Assembly (NCBI GenBank): GCA_016777005.1
Contig: JADHSF010000007.1
Location: forward strand, 1 to 49,748
Direction: 5' to 3'
Source of the DNA: SAR86 cluster bacterium
GTDB lineage: Bacteria; Pseudomonadota; Gammaproteobacteria; Magnimaribacterales; Magnimaribacteraceae
Length of the DNA stretch: 49,748 nucleotides
The notes beneath the pieces are model-generated. The model ran no database searches and was not told the origin of the DNA. It worked only from the letters and a program-made list of their open reading frames with translations. The position numbers and the translations under genes are program-made. Of this stretch, positions 1,911 to 31,339 are shown piece by piece. The number at the start of each line of letters is the position of its first letter. Position 1 is the stretch's first letter.

Positions 1911-2969
1911 TTGAAACCCTCGGATCTCTACTCCAACTTAATAGAGGATGGACAGTTAAGCTTCGATAAAGAGCAGAGCATTCTCTTAAATAAATTCGAT
2001 GAGTTAGGGCATGCCTTAACAAAACGGTCTAAATCCTGGTTTGGTAATAAAAAAATTAATGGTCTCTACATAAGAGGTGAGGTCGGGAGAGGGAAAACTC
2101 AAATGATGGATATTTTCTTTGAAACTCTTGATGTAGAGAAAAAAAAGAGGGTGCATTTTCATAGGTTTATGAAAAATCTTCATGACGAACTTGATAATAT
2201 CTCCGGACAAAAAGATCCCCTAAAGATAGCAGCTAAAAATATTTCTAAAGAGACTGAAGTGCTGTGTTTTGACGAATTCTATGTCGAAGATATTGGAGAC
2301 GCCATGCTCCTTGGGAGGTTTATTAATGAACTATTTGAAAATAAAGTAACCTTAATAACGACTTCAAATACTCATCCAGATAATCTGTATAAAGATGGGC
2401 TTCATAGAAGTAGGTTCCTATCGGCCATTGAGTCTATTAAAGAAAATTGTGAAATATATGAACTAAATTCTGCACAAGATTATCGATTACGCACACTTGA
2501 ACAATTAGAAATATTTCTCATTGGTAAAAAAGATGGGGGTATAGAGGAGCTTGATTCAAATTTTTCTGAACTAACAAACAATGAATATCAAGAAAATAGG
2601 AATATTCAAATATTGGGAAGAAAAATAAAAACCATCAAACTATCAAAAGGTTCTGTTTGGTTATCTTTTCAAGAACTGTGTGAGGGTCCAAGGAGTGCTA
2701 AAGATTACATTGAGATATGCAGTGAATTCCACACTCTTTTTGTGTCCCATATTCCCATTCTGGGAGGGGAAAATGATGATTCTGCTAGAAGATTTATTGC
2801 CTTAATAGACGAATGCTACGAAAGAAATGTAAACCTGATACTCGCTCTGGAATCTGATCTAGATAGCCTTTATGCTGGTGAAAGACTTATTGAGCCATTC
2901 AAAAGAACGATTAGTAGGCTAGAAGAAATGAGGTCCAGAGAATATCTCTCAAAACCTCATTTAATATGA
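1911..2969 (+). CDS. zapE: cell division protein ZapE (AFG1-like ATPase)
   Basis: A 352-residue AFG1/ZapE-type P-loop ATPase. Walker A is GEVGRGKT (residues 56-63) and Walker B is LCFDEF (118-123), followed by the typical YVEDIGDAMLLGRF. In E. coli, ZapE associates with the Z-ring at late constriction and under low oxygen; the mitochondrial homologue AFG1 acts in membrane-protein quality control. Start is TTG at 1911, because the alignment to the family begins there and no upstream ATG is available. The stop codon directly abuts the stop of the oppositely oriented monooxygenase gene (0 bp gap). Confidence 0.95.
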   Translation: MKPSDLYSNLIEDGQLSFDKEQSILLNKFDELGHALTKRSKSWFGNKKINGLYIRGEVGRGKTQMMDIFFETLDVEKKKRVHFHRFMKNLHDELDNISGQKDPLKIAAKNISKETEVLCFDEFYVEDIGDAMLLGRFINELFENKVTLITTSNTHPDNLYKDGLHRSRFLSAIESIKENCEIYELNSAQDYRLRTLEQLEIFLIGKKDGGIEELDSNFSELTNNEYQENRNIQILGRKIKTIKLSKGSVWLSFQELCEGPRSAKDYIEICSEFHTLFVSHIPILGGENDDSARRFIALIDECYERNVNLILALESDLDSLYAGERLIEPFKRTISRLEEMRSREYLSKPHLI

Positions 2970-3251
2970 TTAAACTGACTCTAGGACTTTAATTTCTGGC
3001 GCACCAGCCATAAAGCCACCCATTTGAGCTCCTAGCTCTTTGAAATAATCAGTTTTACCATGAGCCTCTTGAGCCTCTTGATCTTTATATCTCTCTAAGA
3101 AGACGTAAGTTGTATCATCCTCTTTATATAAATCATAATAAACAACGCCATCTTCATTAGCGTTCACTTTCTCAACTAACTGATTAGCAACAGCCTCAAA
3201 ATCTGCACCTGATCCTTCTTTGATCTTTAAAGTAGCAACGATTCCTATCAT
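2970..3251 (-). CDS. antibiotic biosynthesis monooxygenase (ABM) domain protein
   Basis: A 93-residue single-domain protein with a ferredoxin-like ABM pattern: an N-terminal strand IGIVATLKIKEG, a central DLYKEDDTTYVFLERYKD, and a helix AHGKTDYFKEL. The family includes YgiN-type quinol monooxygenases and heme-degrading enzymes. The residues seen do not separate these, so the function is left as putative quinol monooxygenase or unknown. The ATG has a strong SD (GGGAG, 7 nt spacing). It is divergent from the ferredoxin reductase gene with 75 bp between them, which may hold both promoters. Confidence 0.85.
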   Translation of the reverse strand: MIGIVATLKIKEGSGADFEAVANQLVEKVNANEDGVVYYDLYKEDDTTYVFLERYKDQEAQEAHGKTDYFKELGAQMGGFMAGAPEIKVLESV

Positions 3252-3326
3252 TTTTTTCTCCCTTATTTTTGAATTAGATGTAGACTTTAGATACTTTCAA
3301 AAAAATAATCGAGCACTTTTTTAAGC

Positions 3327-4541
3327 ATGGAAAATTTAGTTATAGTTGGGGCCGGACAATCTGCTATCCAATGCATTACTTCTTTGAGAAAAGAAGACTA
3401 CCCCGGTTTAATCACTCTAGTAGGGGAAGAGGAACATCTGCCCTACCAAAGACCTCCTCTGTCGAAGGGTTTTCTTGAGGATACGGTCAGTAACGAGAGA
3501 CTGTATTTTAAAAAACTAAAATTTTTTATTGAAAATAAAGTCCAACTTAAATTGGGTACTAAGGCTGAAGAAATCGATATTGAAAATAATAATATTCATT
3601 TATCAGATAATACAAAACTATCTTTCGATAAATTAGTATTCGCCACTGGAAGTAGTGTAAGAAAACTAGATTTCCCTGGAAAGGATTTAAATTCTATTCA
3701 CTATCTTAGAGGGCTAGATGACGCCCTATCCATAAAAAAAGACCTACAAACTAGTCAAAATATTGTTGTTGTCGGGGCCGGATACATTGGCCTTGAGGTC
3801 GCCGCAATAGCTGCAAAGCAGAATAAATCTGTCACTGTCATTGAAATGGCTGACAGAGTCATGAATAGAACAGTTGATCCACAAATCTCAGATTACTACT
3901 TAAACTTACATCAAAAAAATGGAGTGACATTTAAGTTTAATACCAGTCTACAAGAGATCATTGGAACAAATAATCCTGAAAAAGTAGTCTGTTCTGATGG
4001 AAGTGAGGTTGCAGCAGATATGGTGGTAATAGGTGCAGGTATTATGCCTAATGTGGAGTTAGCAGAAAATGCGGGATTAAGCTGCGACAATGGAATTGTA
4101 GTTAATGAATTTGGTAAAACTGATCATGCAGATATATACGCATGTGGAGACTGTACCAATCATCCCAATAAGCTTCTTAATAAGAAAATCAGATTAGAAT
4201 CAGTTCATAACGCAATGGAACAATCAAAAACTGTAGCGTCATCAATTATCAATCAATCTATAGCATATAACCAAATACCGTGGTTTTGGTCTGATCAGTA
4301 TGACCATAAACTCCAGATAGTGGGTCTCTCTGGAGATCATGATAAAGTTATAATGAGAGGAGACATGAGCGAAGCTAAATTCATGTTGTTCTATACGAAA
4401 GATGAAAAGTTGATAGCCGTTGACGCCGTTAATAATTCAAAAGAGTTCTTAATTTGTAAGAAGCTAGTGGTAAATAAAGTTACAATAAAACCTGATGAAA
4501 TATCTAATCCAGCCAAGAATCTAAATGATCTAATTGAATGA
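3327..4541 (+). CDS. FAD-dependent ferredoxin/rubredoxin reductase
   Basis: A 404-residue flavoprotein of the putidaredoxin/rhodocoxin reductase type. The N-terminal FAD Rossmann motif is VGAGQSA (7-13), with LPYQRPPLSK (38-47) typical of this class. The NAD-binding motif is VVGAGYIGLE (148-157), and a second FAD motif YACGD is near residue 272. The enzyme moves electrons from NAD(P)H to a [2Fe-2S] ferredoxin or rubredoxin serving a P450 or other oxygenase. No partner ferredoxin or oxygenase is in the window. The stop overlaps the hspQ start by 4 bp (ATGA). Confidence 0.93.
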   Translation: MENLVIVGAGQSAIQCITSLRKEDYPGLITLVGEEEHLPYQRPPLSKGFLEDTVSNERLYFKKLKFFIENKVQLKLGTKAEEIDIENNNIHLSDNTKLSFDKLVFATGSSVRKLDFPGKDLNSIHYLRGLDDALSIKKDLQTSQNIVVVGAGYIGLEVAAIAAKQNKSVTVIEMADRVMNRTVDPQISDYYLNLHQKNGVTFKFNTSLQEIIGTNNPEKVVCSDGSEVAADMVVIGAGIMPNVELAENAGLSCDNGIVVNEFGKTDHADIYACGDCTNHPNKLLNKKIRLESVHNAMEQSKTVASSIINQSIAYNQIPWFWSDQYDHKLQIVGLSGDHDKVIMRGDMSEAKFMLFYTKDEKLIAVDAVNNSKEFLICKKLVVNKVTIKPDEISNPAKNLNDLIE

Positions 4542-27557: not shown

Positions 27558-28372
27558 ATGATTTAAACAAAAGAGTTGGTTTTATTGGAGCTGGTAATAT
27601 GGCTACCGCCCTTATATCTGGACTAATCAATAGCAAATATGAGCCTTTAAAAATTATTGCCTCCTCTCCTGAGAAGCAACATCTCCAAAAACTAGAAAAG
27701 GACTTTGGGATCCAAGTAACCGAAAACAACATCGATGTTATAAAAAATACTGATATTATTATCTTAGCCGTTAAGCCAAATATTATTGAAGATGTAGTAA
27801 ATGAAATCAGTGACAGCATCAATCACGAAAACCATTTGATCATTTCTATCGCGGCAGGAATAAAGATTGAAAAAATAGCAGCTTTAATGAGTCCTAAGCA
27901 AAAAATTATTAGGGCAATGCCGAATACACCTGCCAGCATAATGGAAGGCGTTACCGCATTATGTTCAAATAAATTTATTAAACCTGAAGATATAACCGAC
28001 GCCAGAATACTTTTTGAATGTGTTGGAAAAGTCTCAGAAATTAAAGAGAATAATATAGATATTTTTACGGCTCTAATTGGTTCCGGGCCTGCTTATATTT
28101 TTTATCTTATAGAGTCTATGCTGGAAGCCTCAAAAAATTTAGAGCTCTCTGAAGAAGAAAAAGTAAACTTAATATCTTCTATGATCGCAGGGTCAGCCAA
28201 CTTGGCAAATAACTCAATCGATGCGCCTCTTGTATTAAGAAAAAAGGTGACTTCACCTGGCGGTGTTACGGAAAAAGCAATTGAAGGATTTGAAAAACGC
28301 AAGTTGAAAGAAATAATAAAATTATCTATGGATGAGGCTGAAAAAAAATCTATAGAGCTAGGAGATAATTAA
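27554..28372 (+). CDS. proC: pyrroline-5-carboxylate reductase
   Basis: A 272-residue ProC. The N-terminal dinucleotide motif is GFIGAGNMATALISG (9-23), followed by ILAVKPN, IRAMPNTPA and the C-terminal dimer helix LRKKVTSPGGVTEKAIEGFE that carries the P5C-binding residues. It performs the last step of proline synthesis. It is translationally coupled on both sides: ATGA overlap with yggS and a 1-bp overlap with yggT. Confidence 0.96.
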   Translation: MNDLNKRVGFIGAGNMATALISGLINSKYEPLKIIASSPEKQHLQKLEKDFGIQVTENNIDVIKNTDIIILAVKPNIIEDVVNEISDSINHENHLIISIAAGIKIEKIAALMSPKQKIIRAMPNTPASIMEGVTALCSNKFIKPEDITDARILFECVGKVSEIKENNIDIFTALIGSGPAYIFYLIESMLEASKNLELSEEEKVNLISSMIAGSANLANNSIDAPLVLRKKVTSPGGVTEKAIEGFEKRKLKEIIKLSMDEAEKKSIELGDN

Positions 28373-28947
28373 TGTCGGAAGCTACTTTATTCTTATTTAA
28401 AGCCTTGATGGATATTTTCACGATAGGTGTAGTTTTTAATTTCTTATTTAGATTATTAAAAGTTGATTACTACAATCCATTGGTGCAAGGGATTATCAAG
28501 GCCGTTGATCTTCCCAGTCAATTCCTCCGTTCCTTCATAAAACCTTTCCGAAATCTAGACTTTTCATCTTTTTTAGTTGCTATTTTTATTCAAGCTGGAG
28601 CCTTTTACGCAGCCGCAATGACGGGTTCTATTGATTATGTGCCTTCTAAAATTTTGATCTGGTCAACTTACTCTGTAATGCTCTTGACCTTTAAAATGGT
28701 CTGGTGGATTTTATTAGGAGGAATCATTGTGAGTTTTGTAGCGGGTAATAATTTTCATCCAGCAATCGTTCTTATAAGGCAGATGTCTGACCAAATATTT
28801 AAGCCGTTTAGATTATTATTACCTCCAATGGGAGGATTAGATTTTTCGCCAATCTTTGCCTTTATTGCTCTCAACTTCTTACAGGTATTATTTGTTCAAT
28901 TTGCAATAGAGTCAGGATTACCAGTATGGCTCTCTGTTGGATTCTAA
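28372..28947 (+). CDS. YggT family membrane protein
   Basis: A 191-residue protein with two YggT modules, each with hydrophobic helices and an RP-type motif (NPLVQGIIKAVDLPSQFLR in the first, HPAIVLIRQMSDQIFKPFR in the second). Family members lie next to yggS and proC in many proteobacteria and have been linked to membrane or osmotic functions, but the role is not settled. It is the last gene of the argS-yggS-proC-yggT run; the metX promoter begins inside its final codons. Confidence 0.92.
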   Translation: MSEATLFLFKALMDIFTIGVVFNFLFRLLKVDYYNPLVQGIIKAVDLPSQFLRSFIKPFRNLDFSSFLVAIFIQAGAFYAAAMTGSIDYVPSKILIWSTYSVMLLTFKMVWWILLGGIIVSFVAGNNFHPAIVLIRQMSDQIFKPFRLLLPPMGGLDFSPIFAFIALNFLQVLFVQFAIESGLPVWLSVGF

Positions 28948-28965
28948 CCATTGTTCAAATATAAT
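28937..28965 (+). promoter_or_regulatory. sigma-70-type promoter of metX-metW-rdgB
   Basis: A perfect TATAAT at 28960-28965 lies 17 bp after a weak -35 (TTGGAT, 28937-28942). Transcription would start near 28972, which is exactly where the SAM-II-like aptamer begins, as expected for a small riboswitch at the 5' end of the message. The -35 overlaps the last codons of yggT. Confidence 0.65.
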
Positions 28966-28971
28966 AAATCT

Positions 28972-29020
28972 TTCGCCGATTTGTCATAGCTTGCGGGCGT
29001 TTAATTGAAATACAGCTAAT
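28972..29020 (+). promoter_or_regulatory. SAM-II-type riboswitch aptamer upstream of metX
   Basis: The stretch fits the SAM-II pseudoknot by eye. P1 is CGCC (28974-28977) with GGCG (28996-28999). The loop begins GATTTG and holds AGCTTGCG. The 3' strand AAATACAGCTAA (29008-29019) closely resembles the AAAUGUAGCUAA of the characterised environmental SAM-II RNA. ATTT (28979-28982) can pair with AAAT (29008-29011), and TAGC (28987-28990) with GCTA (29015-29018), giving the H-type pseudoknot. The related SAM-V class is the alternative. It precedes metX, the classic SAM-II target. Confidence 0.82.
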
Positions 29021-29025
29021 GCATT

Positions 29026-29064
29026 TAATTAAACCTTCTTAGCGTCGGCAAAAAGGTTTAATTA
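29026..29064 (+). promoter_or_regulatory. SD-sequestering hairpin (riboswitch expression platform)
   Basis: A 12-bp perfect stem pairs 29026-29037 (core AATTAAACCTT) with 29053-29064 (core AAGGTTTAATT), with a 15-nt loop. The 3' arm contains the metX SD (AAGG, 29053-29056) and the first base of the ATG. The same 5' arm (AATTAAAC, 29027-29034) can instead pair with GTTTAATT at 28999-29006, inside the aptamer, so the two structures exclude each other. This predicts repression of translation when SAM is bound. Confidence 0.7.
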
Positions 29065-30173
29065 TGAGTAACTCACTAGAAGCAATAGAAGTAAATACGA
29101 TAACCCTTGACGGTAAACTGGAGCTTGAGTGTGGTCAGGATATTGAAAATATTGACCTAGTTTATGAGACCTATGGAACCTTAAATTCTGATGCTTCAAA
29201 TGCTATTCTTATTTGTCATGCTCTCAGTGGCAATCATCATGCTGCTGGCATATACCAAAATGAAGAAAGACCTGGTTGGTGGGATGCTCTTATAGGACCT
29301 GAAAAAGCTATCAATACAAATAAATTCTTTGTTGTCTGTCCTAATAATATTGGTGGGTGTCATGGCTCTACCGGACCTTCGTCGATTAACAAACAAACAG
29401 GAAAATCTTATGGGCCTGATTTTCCTATCATTACAGTTGCAGACTGGGTTAGATGCCAAAGTATGCTCTCTGATTCTCTTGGAATAAAAGTATGGCATGC
29501 CGTCATTGGGGGAAGTCTTGGTGGTATGCAGGCACTGGAATGGTCATGTCTTTTCCCTAAAAGAATTAAGAAAGCTGGAATCATAGCCGCCGCTCCAAAG
29601 CTAAGCGCCCAAAATATCGCCTTCAATGAGGTCGCTAGGCAAGCAATTGTAAATGATCCTGATTTTATTTCTGGAAGGTACTTAGATGTTGGTAAATCTC
29701 CCAAGCAAGGTTTAAAACTTGCAAGAATGATTGGTCATATCACCTATTTATCTGAAGAAGCGATGAGGAATAAATTTGGAAGAGAGCTCAAAGAAGGTAA
29801 GTTAAAATTTGGATTTGATGCTGAATTTGAAGTAGAAAGTTATCTAAGATATCAAGGTGATGTATTTTCCGAGTCATTTGATGCGAATACCTATCTTCTT
29901 ATGACAAAAATCCTAGATTATTTTGATCCTGCTGATAAATTTGAAGGGAAGTTGGATAAAGCATTTAAAGAAATAGAGGCTCAGTTATTTGTAGTCTCTT
30001 TTTCTACTGACTGGAGATTTTCTCCTGCAAGATCTAAAGAAATAGTCAATGCCCTTATTAAAGCAAAAAAGGATGTAAGTTATATGGAAATTGATAGCCC
30101 TCATGGTCATGATTCATTCTTATTTGCCAATAAAGAGTATGTTAATGGTCTTTCCTCTTTCTTGGAAAATTAA
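29064..30173 (+). CDS. metX: homoserine O-acetyltransferase/O-succinyltransferase (MetX)
   Basis: A 369-residue alpha/beta-hydrolase-fold MetX. The nucleophile is Ser151 in [27 protein letters not shown] (95-107) is the family signature, and the other triad members are in FSTDWRFSP and DSPHGHDSF. It acylates homoserine at the first committed step of methionine synthesis. The acyl donor (acetyl- or succinyl-CoA) cannot be fixed from motifs alone. It is preceded by a SAM-II-like riboswitch and followed immediately by metW. Confidence 0.95.
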
Positions 30174-30761
30174 ATGGACGCTTTAGAAGTTATTAAGAAC
30201 TGGGTAAAAAAGGATTCAGAGGTTCTAGACCTTGGGTGTGGAAAAGGAGAAATCCTGAAAATATTGTCGGAAGAACTCAATACAATCTCATTAGGAATAG
30301 AAATCGATCAAGAAAATATAACTCTTTGTATCCAATCTGGACTTAATGTCATTCAACAAAACATAGATGAAGGATTAAGCAACTTTGGAGATAAAAGTTT
30401 TGATATGGTGATTATGAGCCAGACTATTCAAGTACTTAAAGAGCCTAAAAAAGCCTTACTTGAGGTCACCCGAATAGGCAAAGAATGCATTGTGACAATT
30501 CCAAACTTTGGATATTGGTCTACTAGAGTGAATTTACTCGTCTCGGGGAAAATGCCCGTCACTGGATCATTGCCAAATGCATGGCACGACACACCTAATA
30601 TTCATCTGTGCACGATTAAAGACTTTGAATTACTTTGCATTGAATGCGGCATCAATATAATTGAAAAAAGATTTTTTGATAACTCCGGGATAGAAAACTC
30701 CCTGACCAGGCTTCTACCTAATCTTCTTGGGTCTACCGCTATGTATAAAATTTCTAAATGA
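30174..30761 (+). CDS. metW: methionine biosynthesis protein MetW
   Basis: A 195-residue class I methyltransferase-fold protein with SEVLDLGCGKGEILKIL (motif I), GIEIDQENI, and the MetW-specific FGYWSTRVNLLVSGKMPVTG and WHDTPNIHLCT. MetW is needed for MetX activity in several proteobacteria, and adjacency of metX and metW is standard. It begins directly after the metX stop and overlaps rdgB by 4 bp. Confidence 0.95.
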   Translation: MDALEVIKNWVKKDSEVLDLGCGKGEILKILSEELNTISLGIEIDQENITLCIQSGLNVIQQNIDEGLSNFGDKSFDMVIMSQTIQVLKEPKKALLEVTRIGKECIVTIPNFGYWSTRVNLLVSGKMPVTGSLPNAWHDTPNIHLCTIKDFELLCIECGINIIEKRFFDNSGIENSLTRLLPNLLGSTAMYKISK

Positions 30762-31339
30762 AGATTGCCATTGCTACAAAAAATTTAGGTAAATTAAAAG
30801 AGTTTCAACAACTAACAAAAAATACAAATTTTGAGCTTATTCCCATACCGGAAAGTATTTCAGAACTCCCTCCAGAAACTGGGAAAACATTTTATGAAAA
30901 TGCGCTTATCAAGGCCAAATTCATCTCTAATGCTTTAGAAATACCGGCTATTGGAGATGACTCAGGGCTAGAGGTAGATGCCCTAAATGGAAGGCCAGGT
31001 ATCTATTCAGCCAGATATTCTGAATCAGGTGAAGATAAAGATAATTGCTTAAAACTTCTTAAAAATATGACAGGCCTTAAAGCAGAGTTTAGAGCTGCAA
31101 GATTCAAGTGTTGCTTAGTTGGTTTCTTTGAAGGAAAAATTATTAAAAGCTTTGGAGCTTTAGAGGGAAAAATTTCTGAAGGTTTTAAAGGAGATAAAGG
31201 ATTTGGATATGATCCAATTTTTATTACTCAAAGTGGAATGCATCTTGCTGAGCTTGAGAAAGAAGAGAAAAATGCCATATCACATAGATCCCTGGCTTTC
31301 AGAGAGCTATTAAAGGATTTATCGAAACTAACTAACTAA
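30758..31339 (+). CDS. rdgB: RdgB/HAM1 non-canonical purine NTP pyrophosphatase
   Basis: A 193-residue RdgB/HAM1 protein with IATKNLGKLKEF (4-15), GDDSGLEVDALNGRPGIYSARY, GFGYDPIF and SHRSLAFRE. It hydrolyses ITP, dITP and XTP to monophosphates, keeping deaminated purines out of nucleic acids. It is coupled to metW by ATGA overlap, so it is expected to fall under the SAM-II control of metX. Its 3' end overlaps trmB by 12 bp. Confidence 0.95.
   Translation: MKIAIATKNLGKLKEFQQLTKNTNFELIPIPESISELPPETGKTFYENALIKAKFISNALEIPAIGDDSGLEVDALNGRPGIYSARYSESGEDKDNCLKLLKNMTGLKAEFRAARFKCCLVGFFEGKIIKSFGALEGKISEGFKGDKGFGYDPIFITQSGMHLAELEKEEKNAISHRSLAFRELLKDLSKLTN

Follow-up and report, generated by a model that had tools for sequence, protein, structure and literature searches.

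What controls metX in this SAR86 genome, and at which level, is the question raised by the leader that lies between a yggT-family gene (28372-28947) and metX, with metW and rdgB behind, in the 49,748-nucleotide stretch of DNA that was analysed (the window). An earlier note on this DNA, made from the sequence alone, had read the leader as a SAM-II-like aptamer with a two-state switch acting on the metX ribosome binding site. Judged by comparison with related genomes, the leader is most likely a SAM-responsive OFF switch with a change in its level of control and a retuned ligand reading. We consider it probable that this is an OFF switch of the SAM-II family on metX, with metW and rdgB following, which moved from transcription to translation in the window's lineage. 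The features are collected in Table 1.

Table 1. Features of the metX leader and of the genes that follow it, in window positions
Feature	Position	Strand	Basis or detail
Likely promoter	28937-28965	+	weak -35 TTGGAT 28937-28942, 17-nt spacer, -10 TATAAT 28960-28965
P1 helix	28974-28999	+	28974-28977 with 28996-28999, enclosing GAUUUG 28978-28983
P2 pseudoknot	28989-29022	+	28989-28994 (GCUUGC) with 29015-29022 (GC-U-AA-U-GC)
Antisequestor/antiterminator	28999-29034	+	pairing of 28999-29006 and 29027-29034, which in the window can grow to 11 pairs
U replacing the ligand-contacting third A of GCUAAA	29020	+	sequence comparison
SD-sequestering hairpin	29026-29064	+	3' arm contains the SD AAGG (29053-29056); TTTAATT occupies the former T-tract (29057-29063)
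metX, homoserine O-acyltransferase	29064-30173	+	NF047916 597 bits (cut-off 560); NF001209 535.8 bits (cut-off 331)
metW	30174-30761	+	TIGR02081 and PF07021 above cut-off
rdgB/HAM1 family NTP pyrophosphatase	30758-31339	+	TIGR00042 and PF01725 above cut-off

The metX locus and its aptamer

Protein family models confirmed that the leader precedes metX-metW-rdgB, as had been claimed, and metX and metW are the methionine-pathway genes 3' of the aptamer. The best-scoring model for MetX was the homoserine O-succinyltransferase exception model (597.3 bits; cut-off 560); the protein also exceeded the cut-off of an O-acetyltransferase model (535.8 versus 331 bits), and metY of the same genome passed the O-acetylhomoserine sulfhydrylase model TIGR01326. 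The perfect -10, the SAM-II-like pseudoknot order and the alternative partners of AAUUAAAC described earlier were all present in the sequence. The hexamer TATAAT at 28960-28965 was identical in 20 of 20 distinct leaders of genus g1, to which the window belongs, and genus g4, and was also found in 4 of the 9 remaining rows of our leader alignment (A1). The promoter scan made no call on the metX leader promoter, because the -35 hexamer, which was identified by eye, is weak.

The earlier note had pointed to the Rfam SAM-II and SAM-V covariance models as a check, and the window matched neither: Rfam release 15 at the gathering score gave no SAM match in the window, and with the limit relaxed to E 10 (4227 families), 401 bases spanning the leader yielded no SAM family, SAM-V included. 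We also used a model, R1, made from 28 SAM-II RNAs of other orders of Gammaproteobacteria, each above the RF00521 cut-off. R1 matched 28963-29042 with 35.5 bits and an E-value of 2e-8, which is rough, as are all R1 E-values, owing to a short calibration; the next match in the window scored 16.1 bits. All 33 metX leaders of the window's family were matched by R1. When RF00521 was run against 13 related loci, L032 scored 35.6 bits and L034 28.0 bits (gathering score 36), with GAUUUG, GCUUGC and GCUAAA in register in both matches. Some SAM-II copy scored above the RF00521 cut-off in 6 of 35 family genomes, and a match at E 0.01 or less was found in 34 of 35; at E 1 the model also matched 10 of 14 control genomes, so only stronger matches are informative. 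The RF00521 search matched the metX leader in none of the 24 g1 and g4 genomes. Because the relatives and the independent model R1 do match, the null result obtained with Rfam on the window alone is reversed, and by sequence comparison the metX leader aptamer is of SAM-II descent: this part of the earlier reading stood, even though the Rfam model itself misses the window. In this marine lineage, metX is preceded by a SAM-II that escapes the Rfam model.

In the order's three other families, 17 metX loci were fetched from 94 genomes having a metX match, and the best R1 match among them reached only E 0.044. By eye, the end of a yggT-like gene abuts metX in 15 of these 17 loci, and the two loci of family f4 have a different gene before metX.

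The SAM-II order of elements is kept in the window, with P1, GAUUUG (28978-28983), UUGC (28991-28994) and GCUAA (29015-29019). Alignment A1 comprised 29 of the 33 family metX leaders, the near-copies L008, L009, L012 and L013 being omitted; the two family genomes that contributed no leader were G034 (no metX match) and G023 (partial metX match). The four P1 pairs of the window formed in 29 of 29 rows, and the pair 28975-28998 showed a compensatory double change (GC in 25 rows, AU in 4). A fifth, outer pair of P1 (28973-29000) fails to form in 22 of 29 rows, and the window has U-U there; double changes occurred in two P1 pairs, one of them this outer pair absent from the window. In P2, 96.6% of cells were paired, 4 of 6 pairs were invariant and none showed a double change. 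Over the 29 distinct leaders, P1 and P2 together were paired in 91.2% of cells, compared with 26.6-44.5% when slid. Covariation in the leader helices, which had been named as a check, was found in P1 and was absent from the largely invariant P2; it was weak in both of the mutually exclusive helices described below. GATTTG, TTGC and GCTAA were invariant in 29 of 29 rows, and the pocket uridines and the U-A-A after GC were kept. In the P2a region, the GC/GC adjoining the core was paired in 25 and 27 of 29 rows; reading the alignment by eye showed no long P2a, and P2a looks short in the window.

This apparently short P2a, the pocket that the two classes have in common and a translational mode of control would suit a SAM-V riboswitch, but no SAM-V family appeared among the 4227 Rfam families at E 10, a model made from SAM-II RNAs only gives the match at E 2e-8, and relatives in the family match RF00521. 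A SAM-V identity is accordingly very improbable and was dropped. The loss of function by decay also has little probability. Decay would fit the absent Rfam match together with the lost T-tract and the changed contact base, both treated below; however, mean pairwise identity over the 20 distinct g1 and g4 leaders was 0.964 in the aptamer, against 0.460 in the seven adjoining bases before it (28966-28972) and 0.605 in the first codons, and the downstream stem has been lengthened rather than broken.

Other SAM riboswitches occur in the family. In the window's genome, L202 carries at 3744-3933 (-) a tandem of SAM-II, which at 25.3 bits stays below its cut-off, and SAM-I/IV, which at 52.2 bits passes its cut-off, before an ORF for an OmpW-family outer membrane protein (3051-3704, -). 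SAM-I/IV was found in 6 of 35 family genomes, and 5 of the 6 loci also had a SAM-II core and an OmpW match. This tandem order has already been published, with seven examples (PMC9481103); an OmpW protein is an odd target for SAM control. L202 also holds SAM-II (35.1 bits) at 2930-3005 (-), with a plain terminator and a free SD, before metY, and similar metY leaders are present in many family genomes. A third, divergent SAM-II-like form with a GUCGU-type P1 (R1 24-31 bits) lies near 1500 in L233, L234, L236 and L237; in L236 it precedes an ORF related to homocysteine S-methyltransferases, below curated cut-offs.

The changed pocket base at 29020

At the place of the third A of GCUAAA (29020 in the window), the 33 family metX leaders had U in 23 cases, C in 1 and A in 9, and the 24 leaders with U or C are those of g1 and g4. 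The A is kept at the equivalent site in the SAM-II copies before metY and ompW in the window's genome, in all 28 rows of alignment A2 (SAM-II RNAs from other orders) and in 17 of 17 distinct other family cores, one coding match having been set aside. This match, seen in L060 and L228 with T as the third base, is a single coding stretch that was picked up because the search expression was loose. Among the genome-contig matches listed, 109 of 111 core sites had A; the exceptions were one SAR86 metX leader and the L060/L228 coding match. The pattern GATTTG..GCTTGCGG..GCTAAA occurred in 120 of 369 sampled Gammaproteobacteria genomes and GCTAAB in three, namely the window, G400 and G489. The G400 site has no SAM-II surroundings and looks like chance, as does the pattern match in G235. 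In G489, metZ (O-succinylhomoserine sulfhydrylase; 668 bits against a cut-off of 522) is preceded by a GCUAAU core and an ordinary terminator, and another site in G489 reads GCUAAC. Because of the GCUAAU core before metZ, the third-A change has arisen elsewhere too, ahead of a methionine gene.

The ligand binding sites of Pelagibacter SAM-II include U46, A47 and A49 (PMC11508383). The corresponding A of SAM-V touches both the amino and the carboxyl group of the ligand, and binding fell severely when it was changed to inosine (PMC6061858). By spacing from the U, we equated the third A of GCUAAA with A49 of Pelagibacter SAM-II and A50 of SAM-V. On this analogy, U, like inosine, would present a hydrogen-bond pattern opposite to that of A, and weaker or altered binding would therefore be expected unless something compensates. 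Judged from the aligned sequences, the metX aptamer is a SAM-II pocket variant with a fixed change at a predicted ligand-contact base, and since that base is changed, SAM binding is not to be taken for granted.

The variant may then sense another ligand, or SAM at a different threshold, through its changed aminoacyl contact, a reading to which we give a modest chance. It is favoured by the presence of U or C in 24 of 33 metX leaders and of A in the other family cores, by the 120 sampled genomes with A as against 3 with another base, by the inosine result in SAM-V and by the strong conservation of the variant leaders. Another ligand is, however, disfavoured by the gene, which is still metX, by the remaining pocket bases, which are kept, and by G489, where GCUAAU with an ordinary terminator before metZ fits SAM. 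SAM-I variants that sense spermidine indicate that close riboswitch variants can take other ligands (PMC10853860). We tentatively put forward that two SAR86 genera carry a metX aptamer variant without the known reading of the amino-acid end of SAM and with a threshold, or a SAM-like ligand, unlike that of the metY copy in the same cell, and that one lineage recently went from a terminator to an SD hairpin by two base changes. Among the titles listed in a literature search on riboswitch variants (15 of 35), none concerned a SAM-II pocket variant, and a search on riboswitches with SAR86 found no title reporting SAM-II in SAR86; further searches likewise gave no such title. The changed base in 24 of 33 metX leaders and the unchanged sister copies in the same genomes provide a clean natural comparison.

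The downstream hairpin and its alternative partner

Downstream of the aptamer, 29026-29037 and 29053-29064 form 12 contiguous pairs covering the SD AAGG and the A of the ATG, which agrees with the 12-bp stem proposed earlier over the metX SD and first start-codon base. The hairpin (-13.6 kcal/mol, z -5.15) was equalled by 0 of 200 shuffles and is beyond chance. The earlier note had read the SD pairing correctly but missed both the terminator origin of this hairpin and the changed base at 29020. An intrinsic terminator, made of a G+C stem and a run of 7-9 T, stands here in 30 of 33 family leaders, and in 23 of these 30 it lies directly before an ATG. Only in the window's lineage (G000, G001 and G014) is the T-run reduced to 3 (TTTAATT), with a tail score of -4.0 versus -5.6 to -6.1. 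The two T-to-A changes created A residues that pair with U29029 and U29030, so that a longer stem covers the SD; the positions of these two U are unpaired in 22 of the 28 rows with letters. One stem G-C pair also became U-A by a double change, and an ancestral stem U-A became C-A at 29038/29052, as read from the sequence. An error in a single assembly does not explain the loss of the T-tract, because other leader positions differ among the three genomes; the genomes are close and represent one event. The metY copies of the same three genomes kept nine T and have a separate SD-like AGGAG further down. An intrinsic terminator is most likely the ancestral state of the hairpin, to go by these relatives. 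Covariation in the terminator stem was weak (31, 142, 51, 311 and 16 of 500 shuffles reached the five measures). The terminator scan found none in the window, which is no evidence because the T7 terminator of L019 likewise escaped it.

The terminator form of the 30 family leaders, and the plain terminator type of the metY copy in the same genome, would agree with a hairpin that still acts mainly as a weakened intrinsic terminator and gives the lineage a leakier switch. We regard this as unlikely, in view of the shortened T-run (3 versus 7-9) and the tail score, and because pairing of the new A leaves no U-tract after the stem. Translational control is the better reading for the window's lineage because the T-tract is gone.

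The 5' arm of the hairpin has an alternative partner, since GTTTAATT (28999-29006) is complementary to AATTAAAC (29027-29034). The helix of AAUUAAAC with GUUUAAUU was paired in 91.7% of cells over 29 rows, and relatives for the most part retain both of the mutually exclusive pairings. Support from shuffles was weak (8, 52, 62, 45 and 7 of 500 reached the five measures), and the helix slid by -1 scored equally on double changes. The antiterminator pairing that is usual in other members, GCUAA/UUAGC (29015-29019 with 29039-29043), paired at 92.4% in the 29 rows, showed no covariation and had a probability of 0.00 in the window ensemble; it was rejected.

Folding of nascent RNA from 28972 at 37 degrees, in ensembles that cannot represent the pseudoknot, gave an antisequestor probability of 0.91-0.99 for 3' ends 29036-29075, with the SD 0.47-0.72 unpaired for 3' ends 29056 to 29075. 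The antisequestor probability was 0.58 at 3' end 29090, and at 3' ends 29110 and 29140 the SD hairpin reached 0.94-0.95, even with the aptamer left free. As isolated hairpins, the SD hairpin had -12.8 kcal/mol versus -4.8 kcal/mol for the antisequestor. For RNA ending where the T-tract ends, the terminator had a median of 0.80 and the antiterminator one of 0.10 over 29 rows, with widely scattered values; the window had 0.00 and 0.99, respectively. The two-state switch described earlier is thus borne out for nascent RNA to about 29075 and not for longer RNA, in which the SD hairpin wins even without ligand. Since the antisequestor wins early and the SD hairpin in longer RNA, the switch would not be a slow equilibrium; the folding model suggests that it could be workable during transcription and early ribosome loading.

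In the translational reading that we prefer, SAM would close the P1/P2 pseudoknot and release 29027-29034 from its partner at the aptamer flank, whereupon the downstream hairpin would form and the switch would be OFF. In the ancestral form, represented by 30 of 33 family leaders, this hairpin would terminate transcription. In the window's lineage, the two T-to-A changes would have removed the T-tract and let the new A pair with the 5' arm, and the altered hairpin would hide the SD and the first start-codon base, placing control at translation. Close relatives that differ by a terminator turned into an SD hairpin make it possible to test how a riboswitch changes its level of control.

Distribution and comparison with known systems

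The presence of SAM-II had been thought unusual for this group, a view contradicted by the frequency of the core pattern in the 369 sampled genomes and by earlier surveys (PMC1273637, PMC2704228). Corbino et al. (2005) described a few members outside the alphaproteobacteria, with Coxiella and Bordetella among those shown, and placed the SAM-II promoter just before P1, with many terminators (PMC1273637); Meyer et al. (2009) reported SAM-II in Alpha-, Beta- and Gammaproteobacteria (PMC2704228). A full SAM-II core was present in 101 of the 120 pattern matches listed (at least 119 genome-contig loci), and a MetX- or MetY-like match lay within 900 bases downstream of 64 of 111 core sites among the matches listed. 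The separate external hairpin had also been called unusual, and this did not hold either: a terminator occupies that place in 30 of 33 family leaders, and Huang and Lilley (2018) described the majority of SAM-II as transcriptional (PMC6061858). Among the matches listed, L088, L104, L131 and L141 (titled Alcaligenaceae, Bordetella, beta proteobacterium and Candidimonas) have GCTAAAGAGGTCCGT or a near form nearly abutting the ATG, a layout that looks as if P2 itself hides the SD.

The metXZ RNA element of Leyn et al. (2014) resembles the window's leader in its place before metX or metZ, its possible pseudoknot and its downstream terminator (PMC4239095). That study found SAM_alpha only in two alphaproteobacterial orders and reported metXZ as a new element of beta-proteobacteria (PMC4239095). 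Because the listed beta-proteobacterial records carry the SAM-II core, the metXZ element may be SAM-II itself.

SAM-V shares with the window the kind of pocket and the translational mode, and differs in that the window lacks a SAM-V match and scores with a SAM-II model. The metX SAM-II of 2QWY has been called a rare translational SAM-II (PMC6061858, PMC10907184); it shares metX and, for the window putatively, translation as the controlled step. In 2QWY the RBS is embedded in P2, as described for that structure, whereas in the window it lies in a separate hairpin about 30 nt after P2. With SAM-II (RF00521), the window has in common P1 and the H-type pseudoknot, GAUUUG, UUGC, the U and first two A of GCUAAA, a promoter a few bases before P1, the position upstream of metX and, in 30 of 33 family leaders, the terminator. 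It differs in the U for the third A, the missing Rfam score, the lack of a visible long P2a and the terminator turned SD hairpin. On these sequence features, the window's riboswitch is a member of the SAM-II family, ordinary in kind and place.
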